Below are positions 24,570-31,932 of a stretch of 64,000 nucleotides of DNA, piece by piece; the stretch's first letter is position 1, and every line of letters starts with the position of its first letter. The stretch is from Poseidonocella pacifica (GTDB lineage: Bacteria > Pseudomonadota > Alphaproteobacteria > Rhodobacterales > Rhodobacteraceae). A model generated the notes under the pieces. That model was not told where the DNA came from. It was given only the letters and a program-made list of their open reading frames with translations, and did not search any database. Both the position numbers and the translations under genes were made by a program. The stretch covers positions 496,001 through 560,000 of the forward strand of contig NZ_FOJU01000003.1 in NCBI RefSeq assembly GCF_900111875.1, in the 5' to 3' direction.

Positions 24570-24646
24570 TGGCGGACCGAGGAGGATTCGAACCCCCGAC
24601 CCCCTGATTCGTAGTCAGGTACTCTATCCAGCTGAGCTATCGGTCC
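24570..24646 (-). tRNA. tRNA-Arg (anticodon ACG)
   Basis: Cloverleaf read on the minus strand: acceptor stem GGACCGA / TCGGTCC, D arm AGCTCAGCTGGATAGAG, anticodon stem CCTGA / TCAGG around loop CTACGAA (anticodon ACG), TPsiC arm GGGGGTTCGAATCC. Discriminator G, and the 3' CCA is encoded (24570-24572). ACG is the inosine-modified isoacceptor for CGN codons. Confidence 0.97.
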
Positions 24647-24712: not shown

Positions 24713-26101
24713 TCAACTGCCTGCCGTGACGCCCCGGGGCAGGACGATCTCGAACGTCGTCCCGGAGGCATCGGACCTCAGCAGGCGCAACTCTCCGCCA
24801 TGGCCCCGGATCAGTTCCAGGCTGATGGTCAACCCGAGTCCAGCACCGCCTTTGCTTACGCCCCCCTGAAACGGCTTGAAGATATTGTCCCTCGCCCGCT
24901 TCGGCAGGCCGGGCCCCGTATCCCTGACGTGAATGACCCATGCCGTTGCGGTTTCCTCGGCGGTCAAGGCGATTTCACCCGGAACTCCGGCGGAAATAAT
25001 CGCCTGCCGCGCGTTTCTCACGAGGTTCGATAGCACGCGATGAAGCTGTTCGGGGTCGGCACGAAGCGACAATTGCGGCGGCATTTCCTGACTGAAGATC
25101 AGCGGGTGGGTATCGACCGCGAGGCGCTCTGCGGCAAAGACATCCTCAACGATTTCCGAGAGTGACACGCGAGTCAGCCGGGGCGAAGGCTCTTCGGCGC
25201 GGCCAAACGCAAGGGTCGATTCGCACAGGGTGATGGCCCGCGTCATGGAATTGACCAGTTTCGGGGCAAGCCGCCGAACCGTCGGATCCTGGCTGTCGTC
25301 GATGCGGTCGGCAAAAAGCTGGGCGCTGGTGAGAATATTGCGAAGATCATGGCTGATCTTGGCGACGGCCTGACCAAGCTGGGCCAGACGCTCCTTCTGT
25401 CGCAAAGCCCCGGTAAGCTCGAGTTGAAGCGACCTTAGGGCCTCTTCGGCCTCGCGCAACTCTCGGACCCGGTGGGATGGCTCTATGATCCGCCGCGCAT
25501 CCTCGGGAGCCTCGGCATAGCTGGTGATATGGTCCACGACCCTGCGGATCGGGACCACCAGCAAGCGCCGCACCGCCACAAACAACATGCCCGCCGTGAT
25601 GATCGAGATCACCAGCGACAAAAGCAGGATTCGTGCGGCGTAATCCAGCATGGCAGCCCGCAGAGGCCCCGTTGGCATCGTCACTTCGATCAACAGACCG
25701 GCCTCGCGCACCGGATCGCCGATCACCCGAATGATGTCCTCCTCCGGGTCCAGAAGACGCTTCAGCGCATCCAGGATAAGGTCCGTTGCGGTGTCGGTTC
25801 TCAAATCGAATGTCGCGTCGATCGGCTCGGGGATCGGAGAGGCAAGGATAAGCTGTCGCGCTTCATCCCGCCGAAGCACCACGTTGAGCACCCCGGCGTT
25901 TCGCAGCAACTCCTGCTCCAACTCGCTGTCGATCACGTCATCCGCGAGCAGCGCAAGCGATGCGATCTGGGCCCTTTCCAGACGAGATAGAAGGAAATCC
26001 TGCCGAAACCGCGCGACCGACGGCAGGAAGATGAGAATTTCCGCGAGCATGACGAAGATTATCGTCAGGATCAGGAAGCGACCTGAGAGCGTCTTCAACA
26101 T
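24713..26101 (-). CDS. Membrane sensor histidine kinase
   Basis: Kinase of 462 residues. Two membrane helices (about 8-28 and 155-178) enclose a ~125-residue periplasmic sensor domain, followed by a HAMP-like linker and coiled coil (EAEEALRSLQLELTGALRQ). The phospho-acceptor is H251 in KISHDLRN. ATPase boxes are complete: N box HRVLSNLVRNARQAI, G1 DTGPGLP, F IFKPFQGG, G2 GGAGLGL. There is no response-regulator gene beside it. It lies 18 bp after a flavoprotein gene in a three-gene unit with a VTT-domain membrane protein, so its signal may concern redox or envelope lipid state, which is inference. Confidence 0.92.
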   Translation of the reverse strand: MLKTLSGRFLILTIIFVMLAEILIFLPSVARFRQDFLLSRLERAQIASLALLADDVIDSELEQELLRNAGVLNVVLRRDEARQLILASPIPEPIDATFDLRTDTATDLILDALKRLLDPEEDIIRVIGDPVREAGLLIEVTMPTGPLRAAMLDYAARILLLSLVISIITAGMLFVAVRRLLVVPIRRVVDHITSYAEAPEDARRIIEPSHRVRELREAEEALRSLQLELTGALRQKERLAQLGQAVAKISHDLRNILTSAQLFADRIDDSQDPTVRRLAPKLVNSMTRAITLCESTLAFGRAEEPSPRLTRVSLSEIVEDVFAAERLAVDTHPLIFSQEMPPQLSLRADPEQLHRVLSNLVRNARQAIISAGVPGEIALTAEETATAWVIHVRDTGPGLPKRARDNIFKPFQGGVSKGGAGLGLTISLELIRGHGGELRLLRSDASGTTFEIVLPRGVTAGS

Positions 26102-26119
26102 GCTCGTTTGCTTGCCTCG

Positions 26120-27538
26120 TTACGGGATCCAGCGCTGTACCAGCCGGACGATCCGTTTCACAGTGGGGTTTTCGAACAATCTGGGGCTAAAGTAGGCGCC
26201 GACCACCCTCTTGTTAACCTCCGAAATCGTTGGATAGGGCACAACCATGTTCGCAAGCTGGGTCATTTTGAAGCGGTTCGCGATGGCAAGCGACCAGAAT
26301 CCGATCAAATCTCCGGCCTGCGCACCAACAATAGAGGCCCCGACGGGCCGCCCCGAGACGACCATGATCTTGATAAGCCCGTCCGTTTCGCGTTCAGCGA
26401 TAGCCCGATCATTCTCATCATAGTTGAACCGGAAAACCTCAACCCGTCCGCCATATTCCTTCCGCGCCTGTGCCTCGGTCAGACCGACTTGGGCAAGTTC
26501 GGGCCGGGTGTAGCTGCACCATGGTAGGTGGGCGGTCTTGGTCTTGGCAGGAAGAGCAAAGAGCAATGATCGGATGATGACCCCGGCGTGATACCCGGCG
26601 ACATGGGTGAATTGCATCCCGCCTGCTGCATCTCCAATCGCATAGACCCGCCGGTTTGTCGTCCGCATCGAGGCATCGACCTTGATGCCCGATTTTGTGC
26701 GCTCGACGCCGGCTTTCTCGAGAGACATCCCATCGGTATTGACCTGACGGCCAACCGCCACGAGCAGATGACTGCCACGGATCGTCCGGCCATCGCTGGT
26801 GTCGAGTTCAATTGCGCCCTCTTCACCGCGAACGGCTTCTGCCTGTGCACCTTCGAAGATCTCGATCCCTTCGGCGCGCAGCTTCTTCAATACGATCTCG
26901 GCAAGCTCGGGGTCATCCTTGCCAAAAGCCCGCTGACCTTCGACCACAGTCACCGCCGAACCCAGTCTGCGATGGGCTTGCGCCATTTCCATCCCGATCG
27001 GGCCACCGCCTACCACGATGAGATGGTCCGGGCGGTCCCGCAGCTTCCAGAGAGATTCATTGGTAAGGTAGGGTGCGCCGTCCAGCCCGGGGATGGGCGG
27101 AACGAGCGGGGATGAGCCCGTCGCCAACACGATGCGGCGCGCAGTGATGGTATATTCCCCCGCCTGCACACGGCGATCGTCGATAAACTCGGCCCATTCT
27201 CGTATGACCCTCACGCCAAGGCCTTCGAAGCGCTCTTCGCTGTCTACCGGGGCGATGGACGCGATGACCTCCGCCACGTGATCTTGCGCCTTCGCGTAAT
27301 CAATCTCCGGCTCATGTCCCGCGATCCCGAGCGGCCCGCTCTGTCGATGCGTCTGGGCGGCGGCGGCAGCAGCGATCAGGGCTTTCGACGGAACGCATCC
27401 GTAGTTGAGGCAATCGCCCCCCATCTCGCGGCCTTCGACAAGGATCACATCCGCGCCCATCTGTACCGCCCCCGCCGCAACCGAAAGCCCCGCAGAGCCA
27501 GCGCCGATAACGAGGATGTCGGTTTTGAGTTCAGCCAT
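26120..27538 (-). CDS. FAD/NAD(P)-dependent disulfide-reductase-family protein
   Basis: Flavoprotein of 472 residues in the dihydrolipoamide dehydrogenase / mercuric reductase family. It has FAD motif DILVIGAGSAGLSVAAGA, redox-active cysteines C43 and C48 (GGDCLNYGCVPSK), NAD(P) motif VVGGGPIGMEMAQ and the second FAD motif VYAIGDAAGG. The catalytic histidine of true dihydrolipoamide dehydrogenases (HPTxSE) is replaced: the motif reads PYPTISE, so the disulfide substrate must differ. There is no N-terminal metal-binding domain or C-terminal vicinal cysteine pair as in MerA. It overlaps the VTT-domain gene by 8 bp, and VTT-flavoprotein fusions are known in other bacteria. Confidence 0.9.
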   Translation of the reverse strand: MAELKTDILVIGAGSAGLSVAAGAVQMGADVILVEGREMGGDCLNYGCVPSKALIAAAAAAQTHRQSGPLGIAGHEPEIDYAKAQDHVAEVIASIAPVDSEERFEGLGVRVIREWAEFIDDRRVQAGEYTITARRIVLATGSSPLVPPIPGLDGAPYLTNESLWKLRDRPDHLIVVGGGPIGMEMAQAHRRLGSAVTVVEGQRAFGKDDPELAEIVLKKLRAEGIEIFEGAQAEAVRGEEGAIELDTSDGRTIRGSHLLVAVGRQVNTDGMSLEKAGVERTKSGIKVDASMRTTNRRVYAIGDAAGGMQFTHVAGYHAGVIIRSLLFALPAKTKTAHLPWCSYTRPELAQVGLTEAQARKEYGGRVEVFRFNYDENDRAIAERETDGLIKIMVVSGRPVGASIVGAQAGDLIGFWSLAIANRFKMTQLANMVVPYPTISEVNKRVVGAYFSPRLFENPTVKRIVRLVQRWIP

Positions 27539-28268
27539 TGTCGAGGGCTCCTTTTCCACGCAACAGTTTCCAGATGATCGGCAGGGCTGCCAGCAGGCAG
27601 AGTCCGAGAATCGGTAGTAGGATCTGTGGCTCCAACAGAATGCCGAGGTCGGGCGTCCCTCCCCGTTCGAAGACTTCTCCAAGGCCAGCACCAACCGACG
27701 TGAACACCACAGCGCCGGGGATGATCCCAAGAAAGGTAGAAACGACAAACCGGAACACCGGGACCCCGACCAACGCTGGAATGAGATTGGCCGCAAAAAA
27801 TGGAACTGCGGGAACCAAGCGGATGAGAAAGAGCATGGACCATTGATTCTGGTCGATTCCCTCCTTGATGCGCCGGATCATCCCCTCACCCGTTTCCATC
27901 CGGGACGCGAGCCTTTCGCCGAATCCCCAACGCGCTGCAAGAAAGATGAAGGTGGCCCCCATCGTCGCGCCCAAAACATTGAAGAGCGCCCCCGGAAAGA
28001 GAGAGAAGAGAAACCCGCCCGTCAGCGTTGCAATGGTCGCGCCGGGAAGGGAGAAACCAACAAGCGCAGTGTAGACGGCAACGAACACGAGCGCCGTCAG
28101 CACATAATTTTCATCGCGGAAGGCGATAAGCGCCTCCCGGTTGTCTCGCAGCGCCTCGAAGGTCAGATGGTCGCGCAGCGTAAAAGCCCCCACCAGCGCA
28201 ACAACGCCAATGGCAAGCACAGGGAGGCGTCGAAGCCATTGGGAGGGCGCCGGGGCGCGATCGCTCAT
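27531..28268 (-). CDS. TVP38/TMEM64 (VTT-domain) membrane protein
   Basis: Polytopic inner-membrane protein of 245 residues in the DedA/VTT superfamily, whose members are linked to lipid scrambling or flipping. It has a first helix near residue 15 (LPVLAIGVVALVGAF), the motif SLPGATIATLTGGFLFSLFPG in the first half, the RLVPAVPFFAANLIPAL stretch with the conserved arginine near 148, and VSTFLGIIPGAVVFTSVGAG. Start ATG 28268 is chosen; a GTG nine bases upstream is possible. It is the first gene of the unit with the flavoprotein and kinase genes. Confidence 0.88.
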   Translation of the reverse strand: MSDRAPAPSQWLRRLPVLAIGVVALVGAFTLRDHLTFEALRDNREALIAFRDENYVLTALVFVAVYTALVGFSLPGATIATLTGGFLFSLFPGALFNVLGATMGATFIFLAARWGFGERLASRMETGEGMIRRIKEGIDQNQWSMLFLIRLVPAVPFFAANLIPALVGVPVFRFVVSTFLGIIPGAVVFTSVGAGLGEVFERGGTPDLGILLEPQILLPILGLCLLAALPIIWKLLRGKGALDNG

Positions 28269-28286
28269 ATCACTCACTTTTCAATC

Positions 28287-28340: not shown

Positions 28341-28488
28341 CATGGCGCCTTGCCGGGACATGACCGATCACGGGGCATTGATGGTCAGTGACATCGAACG
28401 GCAGACAGGTCAGGGTTTTCACCGGGGCTGAAACAATCCCGCGCCCAACCCGGCGACCAATTGTTGCAAAAAATGCGGCGGGAGGTGT
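28341..28488. other. Non-coding stretch between divergent units
   Basis: The gap between the VTT-domain gene (start 28268) and rpmH (28607) is 338 bp. Apart from the inverted repeat at 28287-28340 and the rpmH promoter at 28489-28517, I see no reading frame, RNA gene or repeat here. Confidence 0.5.
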
Positions 28489-28606: not shown

Positions 28607-28741
28607 ATGAAACGCACCTTTCAACCCTCGAACCTCGTCCGCAAGCGGCGCCACGGCTTCCGTGCACGCATGGCGACGAAGGCCGGACGCAAGATCCTCA
28701 ATGCGCGCCGCGCACAGGGCCGGAAATCGCTGAGCGCCTGA
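28607..28741 (+). CDS. rpmH: 50S ribosomal protein L34
   Basis: Small, very basic ribosomal protein of 44 residues: [20 protein letters not shown] and the C-terminal [12 protein letters not shown] are the standard L34 ends. ATG 28607 follows a GGAG ribosome site. It heads the conserved rpmH-rnpA-yidD order. Confidence 0.98.
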
Positions 28742-28755
28742 GCGGCGCAAGGCTG

Positions 28756-30329: not shown

Positions 30330-30393
30330 CCGCTCTCTCACTCCAGACCGCTGATATCCCGCTTGGGAATTGGGCAATTTGGGGTTCGAAACG

Positions 30394-31932
30394 ATGTTGT
30401 TGGCGAGTTTTATGCGCATTCGGCGAGTGGCGGCTCTCTTGTTTTCTGGGCCGCAAGTCATCGCATTCACACCTGCCGTATCGCTTGGCGCTTTCTGGAT
30501 CGGCGGCGAGGGCGCGCTTCTGGCCGCTTCGCTCGGCTATCCGATGATTTACATGCTTTTCGCACCAGAGGGATGGGTCCCGCACGAAACCGTCTCGCGA
30601 CGCGATGCTGTAACCGGTTTGCCATTGCGGGAATTCATGCTCGAAAGGCTGGACGACTATTTCGAGATCTCCGCCAATCGTGCCCGGAACGGCGCCTGTA
30701 TGCTGATCGAGCTGACGAATGCGGCGCATGTCGAGACCACCTTTGGATCCGAGGTTCTGAGCGAATTGCGCCGCGCAGTCGCAGATCGCCTGCGCGCCGC
30801 GCTGCGCGACAACGACATGGTTTACTGTCTCACCGACGATCGGTTTGGTCTTGTGTTGGGGACGACCACCAACCTCGACCTTGAGGCAGGCATCCAGTTG
30901 TCGAACCGACTGCTTCGAACCGTACAGGATCCCATCAAGGTGGGAAGCAATACGATCTATCCCTCGAGTTGCCTTGGATTCTGCCTTGCGAACGTTTCGC
31001 CTGAACCAACGGGTGAGGCCTTGATGGACGCCGCGCAATCGGCACTCTTGAGCGCTATGAAGAGCGGCGAAAGCACCATAAGAGCCTATGCCCCCGACAC
31101 AATCCGCGCCGCCGCAAAGGTCGACAACAATGCGCGTGAGGTCATCGAAGCGCTGGAAGACGGGCGTATTACCGCATGGTTCCAACCGCAGGTGAGCACT
31201 GATACGGGCCTTGTCTCGGGCTTTGAAGCGCTTGCCCGCTGGATCCACCCCGAGAAAGGTCCTATCGGGCCGAGCAGCTTTATCCCCGCTCTCGAAGCTG
31301 CTGGCCGGATGGAGCAGCTTGGCGATATTATCCTTCGGCATTCGCTCTTGGCATTGCGCAAATGGGATGCGGCGGGCTTCGACGTGCCATCCATTTCGGT
31401 CAATTTCTCCGAAGTAGAGCTCAGCAATCCGCGCCTCGTCGACAAGGTGCGTTGGGAACTGGACCGGAATGAACTCCCCCCGGAGCGGCTGACTGTCGAG
31501 ATTGTCGAAAGTGTCGTGACGGCGGACCCCAACAACTTGGTTACGCGGAATATCGCGGGCCTCGCGGCGCTTGGTTGTACCGTGGATCTTGACGATTTCG
31601 GGACCGGAAACGCCTCCATTGCGGCCATCCGACAGTTCGATATCAACAGGATCAAGATCGACCGCTCCTATGTATCGCGGATCGACCGGGACCCCGAACA
31701 ACAGCGGCTGATATCGGCGATCATCACCATGGCCGAACAACTTGGCCTGCAAACCGTGGCCGAAGGCGTGGAGACACAAGGAGAGCATGCGCTCATTTCC
31801 CAGCTTGGATGTGATCACGCTCAGGGGTTTGCACTGGCGCGGCCGATGGCGCTGGACAACACCTTTGGCTGGATGGAGCAGCACTACGCCCACCTTCTGC
31901 CCATACCCCAGATCGGTGGCCGCGCGTTTTGA
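30394..31932 (+). CDS. c-di-GMP phosphodiesterase: degenerate GGDEF plus EAL domain
   Basis: Protein of 512 residues. Two N-terminal hydrophobic stretches (about 8-55) suggest membrane attachment. The GGDEF domain follows (starting near RRDAVTGLPLREFML), but its signature reads TDDRF in place of GGDEF, so it should not make c-di-GMP. The EAL domain appears intact: GFEALARW, SVNFSEVEL (Asn), TVEIVES (Glu), LDDFGTG (Asp-Asp), RIKIDRSYV (Lys) and VAEGVET (Glu). It is thus a likely phosphodiesterase, possibly GTP-regulated through the degenerate domain. ATG 30394 is preferred over the TTG at 30370. Confidence 0.88.
   Translation: MLLASFMRIRRVAALLFSGPQVIAFTPAVSLGAFWIGGEGALLAASLGYPMIYMLFAPEGWVPHETVSRRDAVTGLPLREFMLERLDDYFEISANRARNGACMLIELTNAAHVETTFGSEVLSELRRAVADRLRAALRDNDMVYCLTDDRFGLVLGTTTNLDLEAGIQLSNRLLRTVQDPIKVGSNTIYPSSCLGFCLANVSPEPTGEALMDAAQSALLSAMKSGESTIRAYAPDTIRAAAKVDNNAREVIEALEDGRITAWFQPQVSTDTGLVSGFEALARWIHPEKGPIGPSSFIPALEAAGRMEQLGDIILRHSLLALRKWDAAGFDVPSISVNFSEVELSNPRLVDKVRWELDRNELPPERLTVEIVESVVTADPNNLVTRNIAGLAALGCTVDLDDFGTGNASIAAIRQFDINRIKIDRSYVSRIDRDPEQQRLISAIITMAEQLGLQTVAEGVETQGEHALISQLGCDHAQGFALARPMALDNTFGWMEQHYAHLLPIPQIGGRAF

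Follow-up and report, generated by a model that had tools for sequence, protein, structure and literature searches.

A conserved gene cluster of a VTT-domain protein, a MerA-like flavoprotein and an orphan sensor histidine kinase in Poseidonocella pacifica and other Alphaproteobacteria

The stretch of DNA analyzed here, a window of 64,000 nucleotides (nt) from contig NZ_FOJU01000003.1 of Poseidonocella pacifica (Rhodobacteraceae; positions 496,001 to 560,000), carries three closely spaced genes on the minus strand, which are referred to as V, F, and HK (H in gene orders) hereafter. In the order of transcription, V (27531..28277 (−)) encodes a VTT-domain inner-membrane protein of the DedA superfamily that resembles those of COG0398, F (26120..27538 (−); 472 aa) encodes an FAD-dependent pyridine-nucleotide disulfide reductase that is MerA-like and belongs to a VTT-linked clade, and HK (24713..26101 (−); 462 aa) encodes a sensor histidine kinase with two transmembrane segments (TM1 and TM2), HisKA and HATPase_c domains, and no receiver domain. 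The start codon of F (ATG) lies within V, the two genes overlapping by 8 nt, and HK begins 18 nt after F. A preliminary description, made from the sequence before any search, had recognized three genes of these kinds here, and the domain matches, all above their cut-offs, agree with it. It had started V at an ATG (28268 (−)). This codon is also possible, but the consensus start of the relatives, MxDMT, points to the GTG at 28277, which gives a protein of 248 aa.

The V-F-H arrangement is a real and deeply conserved gene cluster. One hundred Rhodobacteraceae genomes from 99 genera were searched with E-value cut-offs of ≤ 1e-25 for HK, ≤ 1e-70 for F, and ≤ 1e-15 for V, and matches were found in 94, 90, and 91 genomes, respectively. 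In 6 genomes the match to F was only a paralogue of 40–43% identity, leaving 84 with an F of at least 54%, and 4 of the V matches reached just 30–34%. Since 9 of the 100 genomes gave no match to V, this gene is not universal in the family. Contiguity, defined as the order V-F-H on a single strand with gaps of −50 to 400 nt from match to match, was found in 79 of the 100 genomes; the median gaps between match ends were 15 nt for V-F and 24 nt for F-H (maximum, 319 nt for F-H). In a set of 190 Alphaproteobacteria (thresholds of 1e-12 for V, 1e-75 for F, and 1e-40 for HK; gaps of up to 900 nt), HK was found in 84, F in 97, and V in 107 genomes, and the three genes stood in order in 46, which belong to 39 families, including Rhodobacteraceae, according to the family codes of the listings. 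Of the 84 HK-bearing genomes of this set, 57 have the kinase directly beside V or F; among the 95 genomes with both V and F, these two are neighbours in 78, whichever comes first. Because the order is conserved in both sets, a chance association of V, F, and HK is excluded, and the kinase is conserved with V and F; a lack of such conservation was the first outcome that the preliminary description had named as refuting its proposal. Among 200 sampled Pseudomonadota, HK matches were found in 38, all of them Alphaproteobacteria. The 162 genomes without a match comprise 13 listed within the class, 7 listed outside it, and 142 unlisted, so only the absence of a match outside the class is claimed. 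From 425 kinase relatives in named genomes, 80 loci were retained; their labels are nearly all Rhodobacteraceae or genera of this family, with a few vague or odd titles.

F has Pyr_redox_2 and Pyr_redox_dim domains, both above the cut-off, and together with its CxxxxC motif they place it in class I of the pyridine-nucleotide disulfide reductases. The redox-active CLNYGC (27395..27412 (−); C43 and C48) is kept, as had been read from the sequence. In an alignment from which matches with E above 1e-25 or with fewer than 350 matched residues were left out, both cysteines occur in 105 of the 105 non-reference sequences, the Lpd-like L177 included. Where dihydrolipoamide dehydrogenase (Lpd) and glutathione reductase (Gor) have their catalytic His, F has Tyr435 (26234..26236 (−)), and Tyr is found there in all 104 VTT-linked F sequences; L177, the one sequence of the class set with His, was excluded from this count as Lpd-like, since in the tree it clusters with E. 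coli Lpd (support 98/67). The preliminary description had noted this Tyr and concluded that the substrate must differ. The residue is confirmed against the His of E. coli Lpd, but the conclusion is weakened: the position is also Tyr in MerA and in the transhydrogenase SthA (and His in E. coli Lpd, Gor, and RclA), and a trait common to MerA and SthA defines no new substrate by itself.

In the tree, the F proteins of the V-F-H loci form a clade (100/98), which also includes two V-linked F without an adjacent kinase (from genome G017 and Roseomonas). This clade is sister to the flavoproteins fused or adjacent to VTT proteins elsewhere, with a joint support of 99/97 that excludes E. coli Lpd and Gor. 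The reference nearest to the VTT-linked clade is MerA (94/80, just under the mark of the tool); the references stand on long branches, and their branching order is unsure. The model of F (mean predicted local distance difference test score, pLDDT, of 91.3) found MerA as its best match in the PDB, and in both sequence and fold the closest solved structures are mercuric reductases followed by dihydrolipoamide dehydrogenases. We considered three ordinary identities for F and rejected each. As an Lpd, it scores 340.3 bits in TIGR01350, where 408.8 are required, in addition to having Tyr435 instead of His and being excluded by the tree. Glutathione reductase fails on the same residue and on the exclusion of Gor from the clade. 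As a canonical mercuric reductase, F scores 338 bits in TIGR02053, where 454.45 are required, and lacks both the heavy-metal-associated domain and the C-terminal Cys pair that is a feature of mercuric reductases. Thus F shares with MerA the fold, the redox cysteines, and the Tyr in place of His, and differs from it in these latter respects; nor do mer genes occur among the annotated neighbours of F in the window and in Sinorhizobium meliloti.

At its C-terminus, F bears a basic amphipathic segment, YFSPRLFENPTVKRIVRLVQRWIP (26123..26194 (−); helix 458–470 in the model), unmatched by the reference enzymes in the alignment. The best hydrophobic moment over seven windows of this tail is 0.62, as compared with a 95th percentile of 0.42 for single 18-mers of F. 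Because 4.2% of shuffled tails also reach 0.62, the amphipathicity is suggestive only, and we infer from it, with this reservation, that F may bind peripherally to the membrane or to V.

V scores 74.4 bits against PF09335 (cut-off, 33.9), which makes it a member of the VTT/DedA superfamily. Its AlphaFold model is all-helical (mean pLDDT, 82.7), and a fold search of the PDB with this model gave no match at E ≤ 0.001. The undecaprenyl phosphate (UndP) transporter UptA was tried as an identity and rejected, with an NF052604 score of 23.3 against the 250 bits required. According to PMC10127716, the tip of re-entrant helix 1 carries no acidic residue in DedA proteins of the COG0398 group, which are probably not UndP flippases and resemble eukaryotic scramblases. 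In V, FSLPGATIATLTGGFLF, the stretch assumed to form this tip, is free of acidic residues. The same paper gives Pyr_redox_2 plus the dimerisation domain as the most frequent fusion partner of COG0398 proteins and reports proteins of this group as essential in Caulobacter crescentus and Dinoroseobacter shibae. V shares with the published COG0398 proteins both the VTT domain and the association with Pyr_redox domains, whereas the section on COG0398 mentions no kinase and V here sits with HK. Every part of the cluster belongs to a known type, and the link between V and F has already been published. The literature that we searched, from which most subscription journals were missing, contained neither the three-gene form V-F-H nor a paper on HK. 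The statement in the preliminary description that no described pathway is involved holds only in part: the VTT-flavoprotein fusion and the essentiality of COG0398 proteins in two alphaproteobacteria have been published (PMC10127716), and for the kinase it agrees with the literature covered.

The survey of order and fusions which that description had proposed confirmed both the adjacency of V and F, given above, and the existence of VTT-flavoprotein fusions, found in Paracoccus, Catenovulum, and Burkholderia glumae. These TVP38/TMEM64-FAD oxidoreductase fusions have the same two domains as V plus F, share the CxxxxC motif and the Tyr, and have F halves that form the sister clade. They differ in being one polypeptide, in an identity to F of about 40%, and in having no adjacent kinase gene in the three examples. 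The Catenovulum fusion is neighboured by DUF547, ABC-transporter, and CDP-alcohol phosphatidyltransferase genes, and the Paracoccus fusion likewise by a CDP-alcohol phosphatidyltransferase gene. In E. coli, the DedA genes ydjX and ydjZ lie in a run with ynjBCD, at the end of which the CDP-alcohol phosphatidyltransferase gene ynjF is found on the other strand; the region of the Catenovulum adriaticum plasmid (L219, 7224–14391) resembles part of this ydjXYZ-ynjABCDEF run (L185). The Roseomonas V-F pair, which belongs to the same clade as F and has no kinase annotated beside it, is accompanied by DUF547 and DoxX-like genes and, further off, by radical SAM genes. On the B. glumae plasmid (L222, 7167–12632), the arsenosugar glycosyltransferase genes TIGR04282 and TIGR04283 lie 1.8–2.5 kb from the fusion on the opposite strand, and the VTT flavoproteins of this clade might take part in the chemistry of arsenosugars or arsenolipids. 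Taken as a whole, the neighbourhoods of the fused clade hint at phospholipid-linked chemistry, which serves as a lead only and not as evidence for the trio studied here. Three Rhodobacteraceae genomes that have lost V-F beside the kinase (L119, L121, and L123) have, at another locus (L120, L122, and L124), a VTT-FAD fusion of the other clade, possibly as a replacement. Finally, a flavoprotein annotated as merA on a plasmid of Synechococcus sp. NIES-970 (L221, 7929–14134) groups with the VTT-linked fusions (94/74); its gene converges on a DedA gene, and a sensor kinase and a response regulator lie about 1.7 kb beyond.

HK is a two-component kinase by its HisKA and HATPase_c domains, both above the cut-off, and by its H, N, and G boxes. 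TM1 (residues 7–30; 26012..26083 (−)) is followed by a periplasmic part to about residue 150, TM2 to about residue 178, a linker, the dimerization and histidine phosphotransfer (DHp) domain with the H-box HDLRN, and the catalytic domain. AtoS, ZraS, CreC, and PrsK are among its best NCBIfam hits and share the catalytic core with the H, N, G1, and G2 boxes; HK falls far under the cut-offs of all four, and the AtoS, ZraS, and PrsK matches span the catalytic half only. For the alignment, matches running from residue ≤ 12 to ≥ 440 with E ≤ 1e-45 were taken; 187 passed, of which 167 were unique, and these were split into 117 Rhodobacteraceae sequences and a wider set of 50 treated as lying outside the family (one, L133, actually lies inside it). 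In the wider set, the phospho-acceptor His251 (25349..25351 (−)) is the sole residue in its column, gaps ignored, and the mean column conservation is 0.723 for TM1, 0.477 for the periplasmic part, 0.616 for TM2, and 0.687 for DHp. Within the 117 Rhodobacteraceae, TM1 and DHp reach 0.897 and 0.880, respectively. The conserved residues of TM1 include Glu21 and Pro27, the former being kept in 45 of the 50 and in 116 of the 117 sequences. In the class search, 82 of the 84 HK matches extend to residue ≤ 5, while of the 30 matches to an EnvZ-like kinase of the P. pacifica genome that were assigned a locus, 17 begin after residue 100. The EnvZ-like control set scored 0.453 for TM1 and 0.643 for DHp; this contrast is a rough one, because the control (28 sequences) is a mixture of paralogues, many aligned over the catalytic half only. 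Among HisKA/HATPase_c sensor kinases, HK stands apart by an unusually conserved TM1 and by having no adjacent response regulator. TM1 was also considered as a helix that docks to V, and this was rejected: genomes in which both V and F went undetected still retain it, so contact with V cannot be its purpose. The combination of a conserved TM1 with a drifting periplasmic part suggests that HK may sense a general property or component of the membrane, within the bilayer, rather than V.

Of the 41 receiver matches (PF00072) in the genome, 39 were above the cut-off. None lies in the 64-kb window, and about 158 kb of the contig separate HK from the closest one on it (680419, as compared with 520716–522101 for HK). 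HK is therefore an orphan by position, as the preliminary description had it. Long frames had hinted at hybrid kinases with a fused receiver, a candidate that was dropped, as none of the 187 filtered HKs extends more than 40 residues past the matched end.

Upstream of V, a conserved site ATCAA-N5-CGTGA (28368..28382 (−)) lies just 5′ of a promoter-like pair. It was found in 61 of 77 Rhodobacteraceae upstream regions (loci L033–L112), at least one of which (L104) is too short to reveal it, and its median distance is 96 nt before codon 5 of V. The conserved T-rich and CAT-T columns downstream of it are spaced like −35 and −10 elements and may be a promoter. A locus with V-H and no F (L127) retains the site. 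Eight loci that have HK only and keep rnpA show no motif in the orientation of HK between rnpA and HK, and one of the eight (L113) has it in reverse orientation. The second site in this genome lies in a convergent intergenic gap. In three relatives, the sites numbered 3, 5, and 6, as compared with 2, 1, and 1 for a reversed control. The motif looks like a putative operon-specific site.

The cluster is commonly divergent to the rpmH-rnpA-yidD-yidC genes. In the window, rpmH, read from the sequence, lies outside the cluster at 28610..28742 (+) and is followed by rnpA, recognized by a domain match; on the other side, a tRNA-Arg(acg) gene (24570..24646 (−)) lies 66 nt beyond HK. Among 42 class loci, rnpA was found near the trio, upstream and divergent, in 29, and yidC in 31; rnpA is present in 75 of the 80 named Rhodobacteraceae loci. 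In S. meliloti, the order is yihA, yidC, rpmH, and then genes for a TVP38/TMEM64 protein, an NAD(P)/FAD-dependent oxidoreductase, and a HAMP histidine kinase. The window also contains, between ttcA and yidC, a gene for a GGDEF-EAL protein (30370–31932 (+)), to which a match of at least 40% identity occurs in the flank of 49 of the 80 named kinase loci. In three V-F-H blocks (L232, L233, and L240), neither rnpA nor yidC was found in the 3.9–5.2 kb upstream of V, an indication that the trio can stay intact outside this synteny.

From these results, we consider that the odds are about even for the following proposal: V and F constitute a membrane-associated, NAD(P)H-dependent reductase pair, to which an ancestral, semi-independent orphan kinase is attached. 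V-F-H would be an ancestral alphaproteobacterial cluster and, judging from the spacing, the overlap, and the conservation, probably an operon. V would be a COG0398-type, scramblase-like membrane protein, and F a MerA-like NAD(P)H:FAD disulfide reductase working beside V on the inner side of the membrane, where its basic amphipathic tail or, in other lineages, direct fusion to V would keep it. Electrons would pass via C43 and C48 to a substrate, thiol-reactive or oxidised, that lies at the membrane or stems from it. HK, on the same transcript, would use its conserved TM1, and not a periplasmic ligand, to gauge the state of the membrane and would signal to a response regulator encoded elsewhere, with an output wider than V-F. 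A bolder reading, that of a widespread and undescribed membrane-redox system of Alphaproteobacteria in which V and the docked F reduce or repair a membrane component (an oxidised lipid, a quinone, or a lipid-borne thiol) while HK senses the same state in the bilayer via the Glu of TM1 and signals to a distant regulator, appears unlikely.

A number of observations weigh against a tight functional unit of this kind. HK occurs without V and F in 6 of the 94 Rhodobacteraceae and in 8 of the 84 class genomes that have it, and it still adjoins rnpA after V-F have gone (L113–L117, L119, L121, L123, L167, L168, and L243). F alone is missing in L127, L129, L229, L231, and L237, and V alone was not found in L226 and L241. 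Conversely, 22 class genomes, many of them small, have V and F without HK, and of the 24 with F and no HK, 16 are ≤ 2.0 Mb and some are incomplete. The site upstream of V was absent from L129 (V-HK, no F) and L126 (V-F, no HK), and a check of six loci from other families (L161, L166, L173, L232, L233, and L240) did not reveal it before V; a regulon for it was rejected, since the two sites in the genome equal the two hits of the reversed pattern. Further, part of the TM1 score may be due to the limited range of residues in membrane helices, with the control being rough, and Glu21 is present in 9 of the 11 sequences checked from the 14 genomes in which neither V nor F was found (Gln and Val in the exceptions). 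Since HK persists where either or both of V and F are missing, it is independent of them to this extent. These observations speak against a strict version of the one unit proposed in the preliminary description, and its claim of dedicated sensing is doubtful.

The persistence of HK makes passive synteny a real rival: V-F would be a functional pair, and HK a mere neighbour with an unrelated function in the slowly changing rpmH-rnpA-yidC block. The kinase loci that stay by rnpA, the frequency of divergent rnpA and of rpmH (as in S. meliloti) beside the cluster, the genomes with HK only, and the small genomes with V-F only are all as expected in that case. Genomes of ≤ 2.0 Mb account for 3 of the 84 that bear HK and for 16 of the 24 that have F without it, and reduced genomes thus tend to retain the V-F pair and to drop the regulator; among the large genomes of these 24, three (G113, G244, and G246) have an F of 41–44% identity in one long frame with V, like the fused type. 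However, mere neighbourhood does not readily account for the short same-strand F-H distance maintained in most of the family, for the three blocks that stay intact away from rnpA and yidC, or for the kinase remaining behind V where F alone is lost and behind F where V was not found. We regard passive synteny as a serious possibility, yet below the proposal of a reductase pair with a semi-independent kinase. HK is the most interesting part of the cluster and the least firmly tied to V and F.

The other alternatives concern F. It could handle metals or metalloids, acting like MerA on Hg(II) or on As or Se thiolates, with V as the partner for a lipid-bound metalloid. MerA being its closest solved relative in sequence and fold, the common Tyr, and the arsenosugar glycosyltransferase genes near the B. 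glumae fusion of the sister clade agree with this role, but the missed TIGR02053 cut-off and the missing metal-associated domain and Cys pair do not, and no mer, ars, or arsenosugar gene was found among the annotated neighbours in the window and in S. meliloti; we judge it improbable. That F is an ordinary Lpd, the identity that the preliminary description had set up as a refutation, or a glutathione reductase, lying beside V by chance, is scarcely credible on sequence grounds: the fold and redox cysteines are indeed common to these enzymes and the TIGR01350 match is strong even though under its cut-off, but the curated cut-offs are missed, Tyr replaces His throughout the VTT-linked F, the clade excludes E. 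coli Lpd and Gor, and V and F are adjacent in most genomes that have both.

The bacterial role of the COG0398 VTT proteins is treated as open in the section of PMC10127716 devoted to them, despite their essentiality and their kinship to scramblases. The conserved link of such a protein to a specific flavoenzyme and to an orphan kinase provides three testable handles on COG0398 function, and HK, with its unusually conserved transmembrane helix, is a candidate sensor that would act directly within the bilayer.

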